The notes beneath the pieces are model-generated. The model searched no databases, was not told where the DNA came from, and saw only the letters and a program-made list of their open reading frames with translations. Shown piece by piece: positions 55,341-62,809 of a DNA stretch of 64,000 nucleotides (the stretch's first letter is position 1; each line of letters begins with the position of its first letter). Position numbers and translations under genes: made by a program. Origin of the DNA: a bacterium (lineage in GTDB: Bacteria > Sysuimicrobiota > Sysuimicrobiia > Sysuimicrobiales > Segetimicrobiaceae); NCBI GenBank assembly GCA_035307765.1, contig DATGHU010000023.1:1-64000 (forward strand). Reading direction: 5' to 3'.

Positions 55341-56051
55341 ATGCGTCCGATCGTCATTATGCCCCTCTACAATGAAGAGGAGACCGTTGCGCAGGTCCTG
55401 GAGGAAGTTCGGCGTCACACGGTCGCAAAGATCTTGGTGGTCAACGACGGCTCCACGGATCGGTCGGCGGAAATCCTCAAACGGAGCCGCCTCGACCTTC
55501 AGGTGGTGACCCACGCCCAAAACGAAGGGTACGGGCAGTCGCTGATCGATGGATTTCGCGGGGCGATCCGCGACGGGTACGACGTTGCCGTGACGATCGA
55601 CTGCGACCTTCAGCACGAGCCGCACATGATCCCGCAGTTTCTTGAGCTGGCGTCGGAGTTCGACATCGTTTCCGGGAGCCGCTACCATCCGGAGGCACCG
55701 GGCGTCCAGGATCCCGCCCCGCCGGATCGGCAGCGGATCAACGAAGAGATCACCCGGATCATCAATGACCTGACCGGGTATCACCTCACCGATGCGTGGT
55801 GCGGTTTCAAAGCGTACCGCGCCGCGGGTCTCGCCCGGATGACGCTCGACGAGCGAAGTTACGGCTTTCCCCTGCAGGTGTGGCTGCAGGCCGCACGGGT
55901 GGGGCTCACGGTCACGGAGGTTCCCGTGCCGCGGATCTACAAGAACCCCGGGCGGCGGTTTTGGGGGGGCCTCGATGATCCGGCCGCGCGACGCACCTAC
56001 TACCTGACGATCATCGACCGCGAGGTGAGCCGATGGCGGAACTCCTCGTAA
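55341..56051 (+). CDS. GT2-family glycosyltransferase
   Basis: A 236-residue GT-A enzyme. The nucleotide-sugar site starts at PIVIMPLYNEEETVAQVL and continues with ILVVNDGSTDRS; the metal-binding DxD equivalent is TIDCDLQH (~85). C-terminal acceptor features are DAWCGFKAYRAAGL (~155) and VTEVPVPRIYKNPGRRFWGG. There is no C-terminal membrane pair, so it may be soluble. It resembles dolichol-phosphate mannosyltransferase-like catalytic domains. ATG 55341 follows GGGGGAGCT. Its 3' end overlaps the LmbE gene by 19 bp. Confidence 0.85.
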   Translation: MRPIVIMPLYNEEETVAQVLEEVRRHTVAKILVVNDGSTDRSAEILKRSRLDLQVVTHAQNEGYGQSLIDGFRGAIRDGYDVAVTIDCDLQHEPHMIPQFLELASEFDIVSGSRYHPEAPGVQDPAPPDRQRINEEITRIINDLTGYHLTDAWCGFKAYRAAGLARMTLDERSYGFPLQVWLQAARVGLTVTEVPVPRIYKNPGRRFWGGLDDPAARRTYYLTIIDREVSRWRNSS

Positions 56052-56713
56052 TCGGCGCCCACCCCGATGATGTGGAGATCGGGATGGGCGGCGCGGTGGC
56101 GACCTTCGTCCGGCAGGGCCACGACGTGACGATCCTCGATCTCACCGACGGCGAGCCCACCCCGATGGGGACCCCGGAGCGGCGCCGGGCCGAGAGCGAA
56201 GCGGCCGCCGGGGTGTTGGGGGTGCGGCGCCGCACGCTGCCGCTGCCCAACCGATACCTCCAGGATACCGTGGAGAACCGGATGGCCGTCGCGGAGGTGA
56301 TCCGCGAGGTCCGTCCAGACATCCTGTTCATCCCGTACGGGGTGGATGCGCACCCCGATCACGTCGCCGCGGAGCGCCTGGCGGAGGCGGCCCGATTCTA
56401 CGCCAAACTCACCAAGACCGAGATGCGGGGAGACCCCCACTATCCGGGCCGGATCCTGCACTTCTTCTGCACGCACTACCGGCTGCACGTGGCCCCGGCG
56501 TTCGTCCTGGACATCACCGAGCAGATCGAGCGCAAGATGGAGGCGATCGCCTGCTATCGATCCCAGTTCAACGAGGAGCGGGGCAACGCCGGGGTGCTCG
56601 AGGCGATCCGGACTATCGCCGCGTACTGGGGCACCCGGATCCGGCGGCCATACGGCGAACCGTTCGCCAGCAAGGAAGCGCTGGGGCTGCGCGGGCTCGG
56701 GGAACTGCTGTGA
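56033..56713 (+). CDS. LmbE/PIG-L-type deacetylase (BshB1-like)
   Basis: A 226-residue zinc N-deacetylase. The metal motif is IGAHPDDVEIGMGG (~7-18; AHPDD-x-E) with a third ligand in YGVDAHPDHVAAERLAEAA (~105). LTDGEPTPMGT matches the BshB1-type bacillithiol enzyme closely, and this gene would act on N-acetylglucosaminyl-malate or a related GlcNAc conjugate. Position between a glycosyltransferase and a GHQP protein mirrors bshA-bshB-bshC. The canonical BshA would be a GT4 enzyme, so the pathway product is uncertain. Confidence 0.85.
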   Translation: MAELLVIGAHPDDVEIGMGGAVATFVRQGHDVTILDLTDGEPTPMGTPERRRAESEAAAGVLGVRRRTLPLPNRYLQDTVENRMAVAEVIREVRPDILFIPYGVDAHPDHVAAERLAEAARFYAKLTKTEMRGDPHYPGRILHFFCTHYRLHVAPAFVLDITEQIERKMEAIACYRSQFNEERGNAGVLEAIRTIAAYWGTRIRRPYGEPFASKEALGLRGLGELL

Positions 56714-58257
56714 AGGTCGGCCAGCCTGAGATGCCCACCGCGTACAAGGTCCCCGCGCGCTCCGGGGAGGCCCTGATCGTCCCCCCCAGGGCGAAGATCC
56801 CGGCGATCCTCGCCGCCAGGGGCGAAGCCAGCTGGGGGCGGGCGGAGATCATGGGCGTACCGCTCGGCGAGTTTCGCGCCCGCGTGCGGCGGCGCGCGAT
56901 GGCGCTGGTGGAACCGCAGCCGGGCACACAGTCGGGTCCGGTCGTGGTGATGGGGCACCAGCCGCTCTTCTTTCACCCGGGGGTGTGGATGAAGTTTTTT
57001 CTTCTCTCCCGCCTCGGCGCGGATCTAGGGGGGGTCGGGCTGCACCTGATCGTCGACAGCGATGCCTCCGGCGCGGTGACGGCACAGATCCCCGCCCGGA
57101 CCGACCGGCTGATCCGTCGTACGGAGACGCTCCTGGAGGTCCCCGACGAGGTCCCGCTGGAAGCCCACCGGCCCCCGTTCCCTGAGGAGTGGGAGGGGTT
57201 CTGCGCCCGCGTCCGCGGGCACCTCGCGACCCTGGCCCTGGGGGAGGTGTCGGATAGATTTGAAGCGTTCGCGGAGGGGGGGACGGCGGGGCGGCGGCGC
57301 GGCCGCTCGCTGGGCGAGTTTTTGGCGCACGCCCGCCGCGAATACGAGGCGCGGATGGCCCCGCCGACCTACGGCGAGTTGACCGTTTCCGGCTTTTCGG
57401 ATACCCCGGAGTTCAGGACGTTTGTCCTCCACCTCCTGCAGGATCCCCCGGCGTTCCGCCGGTGCTACAATGCGAACCTGGACGCGCACCGCCGGATCCA
57501 CCGGTTGCGCTCGGCGGCCAATCCGTTTCCCAACCTGGGGGAGGTCGATGGCGCCCAGGAGATGCCGGTGTGGGCGCTCCACGGCGGGCGGCGGACAGAT
57601 CTCTACGTCGAGCGGGCGGGGGATCGGGTTCGGCTGCGCACCGCCACGGAACCGATCGCCGAGGTGCCGGCCGGGCCGGAGGGGATCGATGCGCTGAAAG
57701 CCTCAGGCGTCCGGCTCCGGCCGAAGGCCATCACGCTGACGATGTTTGCCCGCCTCTGTCTGGGGGACCTGTTCATCCACGGGGTCGGCGGGGGCCGGTA
57801 CGACCGCGTGACCGATGCGATGATCGGCGAGCTGTTCGGCTGCGCCGCGCCCCCCTATATCGTCGCCACCGGAACGCTCTTTCTCCCGCTTCTGGGAGAG
57901 GAGGAGGCGGCCGACGACCCCCGCGCGCTCGAGCGACGGCTGATGGACCTGCAGCACAATCCTGAGCGGTACCTCGGGACCGCGTCCGCGGCGCAGCAGC
58001 GGCTGATCGACGAGAAGTGGGCGCTGATCCGCTCGGTCGAAGCGATGCGCCCGGGCCCCGAGCGCCGAGCCGCCACCCACCGGATCCGAGAGGTCAACAC
58101 GCTGTTGTCGGCGGGACTGGTCGACCAGATGGCCCGGATCCGGGAGCAGCTGACGGGGCTGAGTCAGAGCTCGTCGGCCCGGGAGGCGGCGGAGGATCGC
58201 GGGTACCCGTTCTTCCTCTTCGACCCCGCCGCGGTCGACGCCCTGGCCGGCGCCTAG
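56710..58257 (+). CDS. Uncharacterised protein with GHQP motif, distantly BshC-like
   Basis: A 515-residue protein encoded in tight coupling with the LmbE gene (GTGA overlap). Around residue 78 it has VVVMGHQPLFFHPGVWMKFFLLSRLGADLGG followed by LIVDSDASGA. This has the same spacing as the BshC nucleotide-loop segment (TGQQ...GPLYTIHK) but with GHQP and a His-Pro-Gly sequence instead. The central ~150-330 is helical; the C-terminal ~400-490 contains long amphipathic helices. I would not call it BshC outright. Alternatives include a distinct ligase or sugar-modifying enzyme. No signal peptide or membrane segments. Confidence 0.55.
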   Translation: MKVGQPEMPTAYKVPARSGEALIVPPRAKIPAILAARGEASWGRAEIMGVPLGEFRARVRRRAMALVEPQPGTQSGPVVVMGHQPLFFHPGVWMKFFLLSRLGADLGGVGLHLIVDSDASGAVTAQIPARTDRLIRRTETLLEVPDEVPLEAHRPPFPEEWEGFCARVRGHLATLALGEVSDRFEAFAEGGTAGRRRGRSLGEFLAHARREYEARMAPPTYGELTVSGFSDTPEFRTFVLHLLQDPPAFRRCYNANLDAHRRIHRLRSAANPFPNLGEVDGAQEMPVWALHGGRRTDLYVERAGDRVRLRTATEPIAEVPAGPEGIDALKASGVRLRPKAITLTMFARLCLGDLFIHGVGGGRYDRVTDAMIGELFGCAAPPYIVATGTLFLPLLGEEEAADDPRALERRLMDLQHNPERYLGTASAAQQRLIDEKWALIRSVEAMRPGPERRAATHRIREVNTLLSAGLVDQMARIREQLTGLSQSSSAREAAEDRGYPFFLFDPAAVDALAGA

Positions 58258-58311: not shown

Positions 58312-59031
58312 GTGACCCCTCCCGTCCCCGCCGTTCTGGCCGAAGACCTCTGGAGAGGGTACGGCCGCACCCGGGTGCTGCGCGGCGTGAACGTCGCGGT
58401 CCCGCCGCATGCCGCCCTCGCCGTGCTCGGGCCCAACGGTTCGGGGAAATCGACGCTGCTGCGCGTGCTGGCGGCGGCGCTGCGCCCGGCGAGGGGGCGG
58501 GTGCTCATCGCCGGCAGCGACCTCTTCGCCATCCCGGAGGAGCGTCGGCGGGTCGGGCTCGTTACCCACGAGCCGATGCTGTACGGGGGCCTCAGCGTGC
58601 TCGAGAACCTGCATCTCCTCGCGACCCTCTACGGGCTTCCGGACGGCCGCGACCGCGCGCGGGAGGTCTGCGATCTCCTCGGGATCGCGCGCCGCGCCGA
58701 CCCCGTGCGCGGGCTGTCGCGCGGGGTGCAGCAGCGGGCCGCACTCGCCCGGGCCGTCCTGCACCGCCCCGCGGTGCTGCTGCTCGACGAACCCTTCAGC
58801 GGGCTCGACCCCGAGGGGATCGCCGGCGTCACCGGCATCCTCGGGGACTTCTGCCGCGGCGGAGGGGCGTTGATCCTGACCACGCACAGTCCGGCGGAAG
58901 CTCTGAGCGTCGCCGCCTCCGCCGCCGTGCTCATCGGAGGACGGCTGACCCCCCTGCGATCGATCGGCGGGATGCCCGTCGAAGCGGTGCGCGCCTGGTA
59001 CCTCGATGCGGTGGCGGGGGGAGGCGGATGA
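58312..59031 (+). CDS. ccmA: ABC transporter ATPase, CcmA-like (heme/cytochrome c maturation)
   Basis: A 239-residue ATPase. Walker A GPNGSGKST (~45), a Q-loop replaced by VTHEPMLYGGLSVLENL (~88, His-Glu rather than Gln, as typical for CcmA), signature LSRGVQQR (~140), Walker B LLLDEPFSGLD (~160), switch His TTHS (~190). It would power CcmB, encoded next, in the system I apparatus that releases heme-bound CcmE. No ccmC, ccmE or ccmF gene is present in the window. GTG 58312 has no strong ribosome binding site. Confidence 0.85.
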   Translation: MTPPVPAVLAEDLWRGYGRTRVLRGVNVAVPPHAALAVLGPNGSGKSTLLRVLAAALRPARGRVLIAGSDLFAIPEERRRVGLVTHEPMLYGGLSVLENLHLLATLYGLPDGRDRAREVCDLLGIARRADPVRGLSRGVQQRAALARAVLHRPAVLLLDEPFSGLDPEGIAGVTGILGDFCRGGGALILTTHSPAEALSVAASAAVLIGGRLTPLRSIGGMPVEAVRAWYLDAVAGGGG

Positions 59032-59696
59032 GGGTGCTGGCGGCATTGGTCTGGAAGGATTTGGTGATCGAAGCGCGGACGCGGGAGCTTGTGACCTCGA
59101 TGAGCCTCGTCGCGTTTCTCGCGCTGGTGATCATGAGCCTGGCGTTTGCGCCGTCCCCCGCATTCGCGGCGACCGCGGCGCCGGGGGTGCTGTGGGTGAC
59201 GGTGGCCTTCGCCGCGACGCTCGGGCTCGCCCGCTCGCACGCCCTCGAACAGGACCGGGGCGCCCTGCAGGGTCTGCTGCTCACCCCCGTCAGCCGGGGC
59301 ATGCTCTACCTCGGAAAGTTCGCCGCGAACCTGTTGCTGGTGGGGATGTTGGAGGTGGTCGTGGTTGCCGCGTTCGCGGTGCTGTTTTCGGTGCCGCTCG
59401 GCCGTCACGTCGGGTGGATCGTCCTCCCCCTCGGTCTCGGGGCGATTGGGTTCACGGCGGTCGGCACCCTGTTGGGGGCGATGACCGCGGCGACGCGTCT
59501 GCGCGAGGTGCTGCTCCCGGTCCTCCTGTTGCCGGTGGTGCTGCCGGTGATCGTCTTCTCGCTGGCCGGGATCGGCGCGGTCCTGGAAGGGCGGCCCCTG
59601 GCCGACCTCTTCCGCTCCGCGAAGCTGCTGGGCGCGGTGGACGCCGTGTTCGTCGTGCTCGGGATCTGGCTGTTCGAATACGTCGTGGAAGAGTAG
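59028..59696 (+). CDS. ccmB: Heme exporter membrane protein CcmB
   Basis: A 222-residue membrane permease with six hydrophobic segments, family-typical length. The amphipathic start RVLAALVWKDLVIEARTRELV is a CcmB hallmark, as is the LEQDRGALQGLLLTPVSRGMLYLGKFAANLL loop (~70-100). ATG 59028 overlaps ccmA. The two form the ABC exporter. The gene converges with the Rieske gene, 37 bp from its stop. Confidence 0.88.
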   Translation: MRVLAALVWKDLVIEARTRELVTSMSLVAFLALVIMSLAFAPSPAFAATAAPGVLWVTVAFAATLGLARSHALEQDRGALQGLLLTPVSRGMLYLGKFAANLLLVGMLEVVVVAAFAVLFSVPLGRHVGWIVLPLGLGAIGFTAVGTLLGAMTAATRLREVLLPVLLLPVVLPVIVFSLAGIGAVLEGRPLADLFRSAKLLGAVDAVFVVLGIWLFEYVVEE

Positions 59697-59733: not shown

Positions 59734-60042
59734 TTACGGCAGGTCCGCGTACACCGCGCCGTCACGCACCTGCACGGGATAGGTGACGACGGGGCGCCGC
59801 GCGGGCGGTTCCACCACCTGACCCGTCCGGACGTCAAACCGGCTGCCGTGCCAGGGACACGTCACCGTGGTTCCGTTCACCGCGCCCTTCCCCAGGGGTC
59901 CGCCCATGTGCGTGCATTCGTTTGCGAGCGCGTAGAACACCCCGTCCAGGTTGAAGAGGGCAAGCACCTTCCCGGCCACCCGAACTTCCCTGCCGGTTCC
60001 GGCCGGAACCTCTGCGACGTCGGCGAGCTTGATCAACGGCAT
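59734..60042 (-). CDS. Rieske [2Fe-2S] ferredoxin
   Basis: A 102-residue Rieske protein. Cluster ligands are C-x-H in NECTHMGGPLG (~42) and C-x-x-H in TCPWHGSRFD (~63). No membrane anchor, so a soluble electron carrier of the NirD/dioxygenase-ferredoxin type. Its start overlaps the end of the SufR-like regulator gene by 10 bp, so they are co-transcribed. The FAD oxidoreductase of the divergent operon is a plausible reductase partner. Confidence 0.92.
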   Translation of the reverse strand: MPLIKLADVAEVPAGTGREVRVAGKVLALFNLDGVFYALANECTHMGGPLGKGAVNGTTVTCPWHGSRFDVRTGQVVEPPARRPVVTYPVQVRDGAVYADLP

Positions 60043-60815: not shown

Positions 60816-61625
60816 GTGCCGCCGGTGCGATCGCGGGAGGGGACCGGAGGGTGTCCGCGGGCTCGGCTGAGGGGGGGATCCTTGCCTGGTTCCCAAGCGC
60901 CGGGGGACGGCGTAGATCGCTTTCGTCTCTTTCAGGACCTGGCCGGTCCGCACCTTCACCGGCTGTCCTCACGTCTGAAGGTTCGGCACTTCCGCGTCGG
61001 TGAGTTCGTGGTGCAGATGGGGGAGCGGGCGGAGACCCTCTACTTTCTGGACGCCGGTGCCGTAAAGGTCAGCACCATCTCGCCGACCGGTGAGGAGCGC
61101 ATCCTCGACGTCCTCAAGGCCGGCGACACGCTTGGAGAACTCTTCATCGGCCCGGCTGATCGCTGGACGGCCTTGGCGCAGGCCGTCTCGCCGTTGACCG
61201 TCCGCACCATCCAACGGGAGGCCTTCGTCGGGCTGATGCGGGCCGATCCGATCGTCTGCCTCAATTACATCCACCATCTCGTCGAACAGCAGCGGCGGAT
61301 TCATGCGCGCCTGGAGGCGCTGGTGCATTCGGATCCGGGCCTCCGCGTGCTGGCGCTGCTGGCGGGGTTGGCCGATCGGGGCGAGCGTGCGCCGGGGGAC
61401 CGATATACGCTGCCGGCGAAGCTCACCCAGGGGGATCTTGCCCGCATGATCGGGTTGAACCGAAGCACCGTGAGTATGTTGATCAATGCGTACAGGCGTC
61501 GGGGGTTGTTGGGAGGGGAGCGGGGGACGCTCGTGATCCATTGGGGCCGCGTCAGGGCCGTGTTGAGACGGGCCGGCCTCACGGTCGCCGCACCCTCCGG
61601 GCCTCCGCGGGGGGGGTGGTGGTGA
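60816..61625 (+). CDS. Crp/Fnr-family transcription regulator
   Basis: A ~269-residue regulator. A cNMP-binding-type beta-roll spans ~45-160 (FRVGEFVVQMGERAETLYFLDAGAVKVSTISPTGEERILDVLKAGDTLGE) and a C-terminal winged HTH at ~200-245 (LTQGDLARMIGLNRSTVSMLINAYRRRGLL). No N-terminal Cys cluster of FNR type is seen; the two Cys (PRARL before; IVCLNY) do not form a 4Fe-4S site. The first ~35 residues are low-complexity, so the real start may be TTG 60882 behind GAGGGGGGG. The stop overlaps the next gene (TGATG). Confidence 0.88.
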   Translation: MPPVRSREGTGGCPRARLRGGSLPGSQAPGDGVDRFRLFQDLAGPHLHRLSSRLKVRHFRVGEFVVQMGERAETLYFLDAGAVKVSTISPTGEERILDVLKAGDTLGELFIGPADRWTALAQAVSPLTVRTIQREAFVGLMRADPIVCLNYIHHLVEQQRRIHARLEALVHSDPGLRVLALLAGLADRGERAPGDRYTLPAKLTQGDLARMIGLNRSTVSMLINAYRRRGLLGGERGTLVIHWGRVRAVLRRAGLTVAAPSGPPRGGWW

Positions 61626-62809
61626 TGCCGCACTATCAGTACGTGATTGTCGGAGGAGGGATGACGGCGGACGCCGCGATCGGCGGGATTCGCCAGGCCG
61701 ATCCCTCGGGGACCATCGGGCTGATCGGCAGCGAGGCCCATCCGCCCTACAATCGGCCGCCCCTCTCCAAGGCCATGTGGAAGGGAAAATCGCTCGACAG
61801 CATTTGGCGCCGGACGGATCGTCAGGGCGTCGACCTCCACCTCGGCCGAACCGTCCGCAGCCTCGACGCGAAATCAAAGCGCGTCGGCGATGATCAGGGG
61901 ACGATCTACACCTGGGACAAGTTGCTGCTGGCGACGGGGGGGGCGCCGCGCCGCCTTCCGTCGGGGGGCGGGGGCGTCATCTATTTCCGCACACTGGACG
62001 ACTACACGCGTCTTCGGGCGTTGACCGAGCAGGCGCAGCGGTTCGCGGTCATCGGCAGCGGGTTCATCGGCTCCGAGATCGCCGCCGCCCTGGCCATGAA
62101 CAAGAAGGACGTGGTGATGTTATTCCCGGGCGAAGGGATCGGCGGCCGCATGTTCCCGCGGGACCTCTCCGCCTTCCTCAACGACTACTATCGGCAGAAG
62201 GGGGTGGAACTGGGCGCCGGCGAGCGGGTGATGTCCCTGACCCCTTCGGGCGCCGGATACCGACTCGCGGCGCAGACCGGCCACGAATGGGTCGTGGAGG
62301 GTGTCGTGGCGGGGGTCGGAATCGCGCCGAACACCGACCTGGCCCGGGACTCGGGGCTGGAGGTCGACGACGGCATCGTGGTGGACGAGTGCCTCCGCAC
62401 CACCCACCCCGACGTTTACGCCGCGGGGGACGTGGCCTCGTTTTTTAGTCCCGTGCTCGGGAAGCGTCTGCGCGTCGAGCACGAAGACAATGCCAACGTG
62501 ATGGGGAAGGCCGCGGGTCTCCTGATGGGGGGGCAGGGCGCGCCGTACCGCCACCTCCCATATTTCTACTCCGACCTCTTCGATCTGGGGTACGAAGCGG
62601 TGGGGAACCTCGATCCCCGGCTGGAGACGGTCGCGGATTGGAAGGATCCCTACCGGGAGGGTGTGGTGTACTACCTCCAACACGGGCGGGTCCGCGGGGT
62701 GCTGCTCTGGAACGTTTGGGATCAGGTCGAGGCGGCCCGAGCGCTCATCGCCGGCCCTGGCCCGATCCGCCCCGAGGACCTCAAAGGGCGACTGCCCCTC
62801 TCGCGCTGA
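61625..62809 (+). CDS. FAD-dependent NAD(P)H oxidoreductase (ferredoxin-reductase/AIF type)
   Basis: A 394-residue two-dinucleotide-domain flavoprotein. FAD GxGxxG-like YVIVGGGMTADAAIGG (~6-20), PPYNRPPLSKAMWKGKS (~40-56, the typical ferredoxin-reductase RPPLSK), NAD domain GSGFIGSEIAAAL (~138-150) and second FAD motif VYAAGDVASF (~265). The C-terminal domain (~310-394) is the BphA4/AIF-type C-terminal domain. ATG 61625 overlaps the regulator stop. It may reduce the Rieske ferredoxin encoded in the divergent operon or a respiratory partner. Confidence 0.88.
   Translation: MPHYQYVIVGGGMTADAAIGGIRQADPSGTIGLIGSEAHPPYNRPPLSKAMWKGKSLDSIWRRTDRQGVDLHLGRTVRSLDAKSKRVGDDQGTIYTWDKLLLATGGAPRRLPSGGGGVIYFRTLDDYTRLRALTEQAQRFAVIGSGFIGSEIAAALAMNKKDVVMLFPGEGIGGRMFPRDLSAFLNDYYRQKGVELGAGERVMSLTPSGAGYRLAAQTGHEWVVEGVVAGVGIAPNTDLARDSGLEVDDGIVVDECLRTTHPDVYAAGDVASFFSPVLGKRLRVEHEDNANVMGKAAGLLMGGQGAPYRHLPYFYSDLFDLGYEAVGNLDPRLETVADWKDPYREGVVYYLQHGRVRGVLLWNVWDQVEAARALIAGPGPIRPEDLKGRLPLSR

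Follow-up and report, generated by a model that had tools for sequence, protein, structure and literature searches.

The described systems closest to the locus reported here are the three-step pathways to bacillithiol (BshA, BshB1, BshC) and mycothiol (MshA, MshB, MshC), the latter proceeding by transfer of N-acetylglucosamine (GlcNAc), LmbE-type deacetylation and attachment of cysteine by an enzyme resembling class I synthetases. BshA is a GT4 glycosyltransferase with a GT-B fold, which acts with retention and gives an alpha-linked product. BshC consists of a Rossmann core with CP1 and CP2 and a coiled coil; its ligation mechanism was unresolved in 2015, and a review of that year noted that cysteine ligation by BshC had never been demonstrated in vitro (PMC4360819). 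In a 64,000-nucleotide stretch of contig DATGHU010000023.1 (assembly GCA_035307765.1, Sysuimicrobiota), in the following called the window, three overlapping genes encode a GT2 glycosyltransferase, an LmbE-type deacetylase and a protein here named ORF3. An earlier note on this DNA had read this cassette as bacillithiol-like. Our analysis supports this view, and we consider that the cassette probably provides an alternative route of the bacillithiol type, leading to a low-molecular-weight thiol built on glucosamine. No bacillithiol-like or BshC-like alternative pathway was found described in the literature searched, which left subscription journals mostly outside its coverage, and the description of Sysuimicrobiota does not mention thiols.

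ORF3 and its relationship to BshC

No Pfam or NCBIfam model matched ORF3, and the BshC models PF10079 and TIGR03998 matched neither the window protein nor its 26 homologues nor the tested members from other lineages. An AlphaFold2 (AF2) model based on a 26-sequence alignment (predicted local distance difference test score, pLDDT, 92) was compared with the PDB using Foldseek. The top match was BshC of B. subtilis (4wbd; E = 2.1e-11, probability 1.00, 507 columns, template modelling scores 0.48/0.46), followed by class I LysRS (1.2e-5) and then other class I synthetases. The Rossmann core and the C-terminal coiled coil that characterize BshC are both found in the predicted structure, the latter as a helical hairpin. 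When 52 ORF3 sequences were aligned with 37 BshC sequences by hhalign, a score of 79% was obtained (E = 1.6e-5, 376 columns), and the controls, comprising reversal, ten column shuffles and two other cassette families, all stayed at or below 2.8%; a previous hhalign run with 5 BshC sequences had given a weak 19%. Profile comparison and structure prediction thus agree in pointing to BshC, and a fold belonging to an unrelated family was not found, as the best structural match is BshC itself. The earlier note had suggested that only the spacing of the BshC loop is kept. GHQP and VDSD are indeed present, but the resemblance amounts to remote homology over nearly the full length. CarD, which came up in a sequence search of the PDB, was rejected as a relative of ORF3, its match being at chance level only (E >= 0.026 with a profile).

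The GQQ, DHD and RP regions of BshC can all be aligned with ORF3, including the G-[QH]-Q loop (Table 1). In this loop, HQP and G91 were conserved in 51/51 homologues with letters at these positions, H89 in 48 and K95 in 50, and in the VDSD motif D116 was kept in 51/51 and D118 in 49/51. GHQP and VDSD are not chance occurrences, because HQP and D116 are intact in every one of these 51 homologues. Further downstream, where hhalign pairs the RP...HGVGG region of ORF3 with RP...GPGE of BshC, R348, G358 and Y364 were present in 52/52 sequences and H357 in 51/52. True BshC proteins are characterized by G-Q/H-Q, GP (as GGP or TGP), DHD and GPGE (as GPGExxY), whereas the corresponding residues in ORF3 are HQP, HPG, DSD and HGxGGxxY; from the BshC signatures TGQQ, DHD..E, GPGE and PR.S.T, only G-x-Q, D-x-D and RP are retained. 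As the set of conserved residues differs, ORF3 is related to BshC but falls outside BshC in its present definition, and as several BshC-constant residues are absent, its substrate could differ from that of BshC. The HPG[IV]W stretch where the helix following the first strand of the core begins can be read as similar to HIGH, the signature motif of class I synthetases. On the basis of the structural model and the profile comparison, gene 3 encodes a remote BshC homologue, which is proposed to act as an amino acid (cysteine) ligase.

TGHQ occurs in 4 of the 37 true BshC proteins, for example in L090:268-1893 (TGHQP, 422 bits on TIGR03998), and GHQP alone is therefore not diagnostic of the ORF3 family. 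Two shortened or strongly diverged relatives of ORF3 (L115:5592-6989, 465 aa, and L114:5364-6377, 337 aa) carry SHQP and altered conserved residues; these proteins may be degenerate or serve another function.

The glycosyltransferase and the deacetylase

The match of gene 1 to PF00535 confirmed the previous assignment to GT2 instead of the GT4 family of BshA. In agreement with this, its AF2 model (pLDDT 93.5) shows a GT-A fold and not the GT-B fold of BshA, and the neighbours found by Foldseek were ArnC (1e-14), DPMS (1e-12) and GpgS (4e-11, TMq 0.73), with GtrB and PpgS also close. Cassette GT2 shares the GT-A core and the DxDxQH motif with DPMS, ArnC and GtrB, and its Arg114 aligns with Arg117 of DPMS, which contacts the sugar and the acceptor phosphate; DPMS and similar GT2 enzymes act with inversion of the anomeric configuration (PMC5526996). 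D87, D89, Q91, H92 and R114 were invariant in 24 homologues, including those from Armatimonadota. Unlike DPMS, ArnC and GtrB, the cassette enzyme lacks a transmembrane domain (hydropathy over 19 residues reaching 0.88 at its maximum in the window protein and <=1.71 in homologues) and scored far below all equivalog cut-offs of polyprenyl-phosphate glycosyltransferases. Hydropathy predicted no transmembrane segment in LmbE and ORF3 either. GpgS is likewise a soluble GT-A enzyme and uses a small acidic acceptor, but its sequence similarity to cassette GT2 is weak, 4 of the 24 homologues matching the GpgS model at 1e-5. By sequence and model, gene 1 encodes a soluble GT-A enzyme of the DPMS/ArnC-like GT2 group. 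The DxDxQH motif, Arg114 and the soluble form together suggest that the acceptor is acidic or carries a phosphate. With inverting enzymes as the nearest relatives of GT2 and retention by BshA, the compound finally formed may be related to bacillithiol but beta-linked, and not bacillithiol itself.

Gene 2 had been described as an LmbE-type GlcNAc deacetylase, and this was upheld: the protein scored 197.1 bits on TIGR04001, the BshB1 equivalog model (cut-off 182.5), which was matched by 23/23 LmbE homologues. Its nearest structures were 1uan, 2ixd and 6p2t, the last being BshB. The pattern HxxD plus H is kept, with H10, D13 and H110 invariant; we take these three residues to be the zinc ligands, and D12 is presumably catalytic. 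By sequence, gene 2 belongs to the BshB1-type LmbE/PIG-L deacetylases, with an N-acetylglucosaminyl compound as the predicted substrate. The reaction sequence proposed below would resemble that of mycothiol synthesis as well, but LmbE reached only 40.9 bits on the MshB model (cut-off 224), and no MshC or CysRS model matched the cassette, the Foldseek match of ORF3 to CysRS having an E value of only 0.45.

Distribution, gene order and canonical bacillithiol genes

In a sample of 386 genomes (43 from Sysuimicrobiota and 343 from elsewhere in Bacteria), ORF3 was present in 42 of the 43 Sysuimicrobiota genomes, including 28/28 of high quality, and always as a single copy. The ORF3 proteins of metagenome-assembled genomes named 'Terrabacteria ANGP1' (NCBI: Candidatus Segetimicrobium) are 63-67% identical to that of the window. 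Wherever contigs were complete, the order in this phylum was GT2, LmbE, ORF3 with overlaps or short gaps. Outside Sysuimicrobiota, ORF3 was found in 10/343 genomes: six have the same order (L106, L108, L109, L111, L112, L114), three have a GT2-ORF3 pair (L107, L110, L113) and one has ORF3 alone (L115). Among 149 genomes of Armatimonadota, four contain ORF3, with a full overlapping trio in L118, the trio order with GT2 and LmbE separated by 227 bp in L004, GT2-ORF3 in L116 and a locus cut by the contig end in L117. Recurrence of the three-gene order, chosen beforehand as a test by which the reading could fail, was thus observed both throughout Sysuimicrobiota and in unrelated lineages. At L107 (genome G326), L110 (G463), L113 (G396) and L116 (G176), GT2 lies directly beside ORF3, with no LmbE gene between or adjoining them. 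BshB1 matches over the cut-off were found elsewhere in the genome, not adjacent to ORF3, for G326, G463, G396 and G280. Between the three genes, branch lengths are correlated, with r = 0.79-0.89 (0.56-0.86 for the lineages outside Sysuimicrobiota), as expected for a unit inherited together.

In the window genome, PF10079 gave no match at E <= 10 and no BshA exceeded the TIGR03999 cut-off (best 120 vs. 273.7 bits), so that no canonical bshA/bshC pair exists over the cut-offs elsewhere in this genome. Canonical bshC was absent from all 43 Sysuimicrobiota genomes, and no genome among the 386 contained both BshC (71 genomes) and ORF3 (52 genomes). BshA over the cut-off was found in 11/12 BshC genomes, but in 0/29 ORF3 genomes tested (Fisher p = 4e-9; p = 1.6e-6 without Sysuimicrobiota), these p values being optimistic because the genomes share ancestry and are not independent. 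Within family f153, genome G337 (L111) carries the GT2-LmbE-ORF3 cassette and genome G474 (L139) carries BshA and BshC, and the two constitute a natural replacement pair of alternative systems. In genome G215 (L133), BshC exceeds its cut-off and BshA does not (best 132 bits); another enzyme may perform the first step there, or bshA may fall into an assembly gap.

The position of the cassette between hemCDB and ccmAB had led to the suggestion of a link to cytochrome c maturation. In the window, hemC and hemB upstream and CcmB downstream were confirmed, and the intervening CcmA-like ATPase scored just under the CcmA cut-off (Table 1). About 17/40 Sysuimicrobiota loci have hemB close upstream, other loci have tgt-yajC-HD there, and a CcmA-like ATPase gene follows on the same strand in about 30/40; at one locus of this phylum that was checked, CcmB, CcmC, CcmE and cytochrome c lie downstream. 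The suggested link is a matter of neighbourhood within Sysuimicrobiota only and is not supported in other phyla, where the cassettes checked are flanked by CheX, PilZ, a response regulator, DctP and BrkB. Since the neighbours differ in this way, the trio is the conserved unit, and the haem/cytochrome c neighbourhood is an arrangement of Sysuimicrobiota and not a property of the cassette. The overlaps reported previously were confirmed from the positions of the reading frames, amounting to 19 bp between GT2 and LmbE (56033-56051) and 4 bp between LmbE and ORF3 (56710-56713). The cassette is thus a single unit, in contrast to B. subtilis, in which bshB2 and bshC lie in operons other than that of bshA-bshB1 (PMC4360819). 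A small Rieske-type ferredoxin-like reading frame and an AIF-like pyridine nucleotide-disulphide reductase are encoded near the cassette and are possible reductase partners.

Table 1. Coordinates of the cassette genes, their motifs and nearby genes in the window
Feature	Position	Strand	Description
Gene 1, GT2	55341-56051	+	ATG start, 236 aa, PF00535 E = 2.8e-24
GT2 metal/donor motif DCDLQH (residues 87-92)	55599-55616	+	Aligns with DADLQH of P. furiosus DPMS
Gene 2, LmbE	56033-56713	+	ATG start, 226 aa, PF02585 E = 2.1e-26
LmbE HPDD (residues 10-13)	56060-56071	+	Invariant in homologue alignment; aligned with 2ixd and 6p2t
LmbE DAHPDH (residues 105-110)	56345-56362	+	Invariant in homologue alignment; aligned with RHPDH of 2ixd
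Gene 3, ORF3	56710-58257	+	GTG start, 515 aa; nothing above threshold in Pfam
ORF3 loop GHQPxxxHPG[VI]WxK (residues 82-95; GHQP 82-85)	56953-56994	+	Counterpart of BshC TG[QH]QxGxxxGP (hhalign)
ORF3 VDSD (residues 115-118)	57052-57063	+	Aligned to BshC DDHD, counterpart of DHD (hhalign)
ORF3 RPKAITLTMFARLCLGDLFIHGVGGGRYDR (residues 337-366)	57718-57807	+	Counterpart of BshC RPxxQDxxxPTxAxVxGPGExxY; region aligned by hhalign
ORF3 C-terminal helical hairpin (helices 427-445, 450-494)	57988-58191	+	AF2; counterpart of BshC coiled coil
CcmA-like ATPase gene	58312-59031		Downstream of cassette; 118 bits, slightly below CcmA cut-off of 131.6
CcmB gene	59028-59696		Downstream of cassette; PF03379
Rieske-type ferredoxin-like reading frame	59734-60042	-	Recognized by eye
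AIF-like pyridine nucleotide-disulphide reductase	61541-62809	+	PF07992, PF14721

Proposed pathway and alternative explanations

The families of the three proteins, the fold, the gene order and the distribution of the cassette are observed, and they suggest the following route. In the first step, the soluble GT2 enzyme would use UDP-GlcNAc to attach GlcNAc to a small acidic acceptor molecule (X), a role that belongs to the GT4 enzyme BshA in the bacillithiol pathway. The BshB1-type deacetylase would then free the amine, giving glucosamine (GlcN)-X, in which X need not be malate. Finally, ORF3 with its class I synthetase-like core would couple the amine of GlcN-X to an amino acid, which is most likely cysteine.

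Several results weigh against this route. The motifs of GT2 are typical of a group dominated by polyprenyl-phosphate transferases, and in ORF3 residues constant in BshC are missing, DHD being changed to DSD and GPGE to HGxGG, with PR.S.T unrecognizable. At a threshold of 1e-20, no match to BshB1 was obtained in genome G176, which has a GT2-ORF3 pair. That ORF3 and BshC exclude each other in the genomes outside Sysuimicrobiota is not significant when taken alone (P = 0.095), and as this comparison is underpowered we rejected it as proof. Bacilliredoxin BrxA/B was found in only 1/43 Sysuimicrobiota genomes; as a marker of bacillithiol use it is uninformative, because BshC-positive Thermus and Deinobacterium controls also lack it. 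Moreover, GlcNAc as the sugar, the acidic acceptor, the substrate of the deacetylase, cysteine and the thiol product are all points that we infer. The sole BrxA/B of Sysuimicrobiota (L095, G021:C2:10361-10768; PF06491, 200 bits) was possibly acquired.

The alternative nearest to the alternative bacillithiol-type route, and in fact a special case of it, is that authentic bacillithiol is formed by non-orthologous displacement, with GT2 producing GlcNAc-malate and a fast-evolving BshC completing the synthesis. The BshB1-level deacetylase, the BshC fold of ORF3, the absence of BshA and BshC from ORF3-positive genomes and the f153 pair would all fit. However, relatives of GT2 invert whereas the BshA product is alpha-linked, and the changes in the BshC signatures throughout ORF3 exceed what an unchanged substrate would require, so that we regard this possibility as unlikely. 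To the same degree we doubt that the cassette forms a non-thiol aminoacyl-glucosamine metabolite through identical chemistry in which another amino acid replaces cysteine. ORF3 does depart from BshC at conserved positions, no tool points to a particular amino acid and BrxA/B is missing from 42/43 Sysuimicrobiota genomes, but the presence of the cassette protein in all 28 high-quality genomes of this phylum and the lack of BshA and BshC in the ORF3-positive genomes tested are better explained by a core redox thiol.

Somewhat less likely again is an envelope pathway, in which GT2 would form polyprenyl-phosphate-GlcNAc, LmbE would deacetylate it and ORF3 would aminoacylate the sugar to modify the cell surface. 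The proximity of GT2 to ArnC, DPMS, GtrB and PpgS and the retention of DxDxQH and of the equivalent of DPMS Arg117 favour such a role. Yet none of the three proteins has a transmembrane helix, no recurrent flippase or GT-C gene was noted among the neighbours, the soluble GpgS is a structural neighbour of GT2 as well, the deacetylase is of the BshB1 type, and ORF3-positive genomes lack BshA and BshC. That three unrelated genes came to lie by chance within a haem/cytochrome operon, as their hemCDB/ccm placement in many Sysuimicrobiota might suggest, is hardly credible and already refuted by the recurrence of the trio without hem or ccm genes in other families of this phylum and in other lineages.

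If the proposed thiol route is correct, it might, as a tentative extension, be a pathway that escapes all family libraries and yields a new thiol composed of cysteine, GlcN, perhaps beta-linked, and an acid other than malate, which would be the main thiol of the uncultured phylum Sysuimicrobiota and of lineages scattered elsewhere. In published work, thiol pathways were surveyed by BLAST searches for BshA and BshC (PMC6282198, PMC12719100), which would miss the GT2-LmbE-ORF3 route. Should the proposed route be right, thiol redox buffering would extend to lineages that are currently scored as having none by BshA/BshC criteria, and the cassette would indicate a sister family of BshC. With its distinct conserved residues (HPG, DSD) and its fixed gene context, ORF3 would offer a fresh system for the study of BshC-type ligation.

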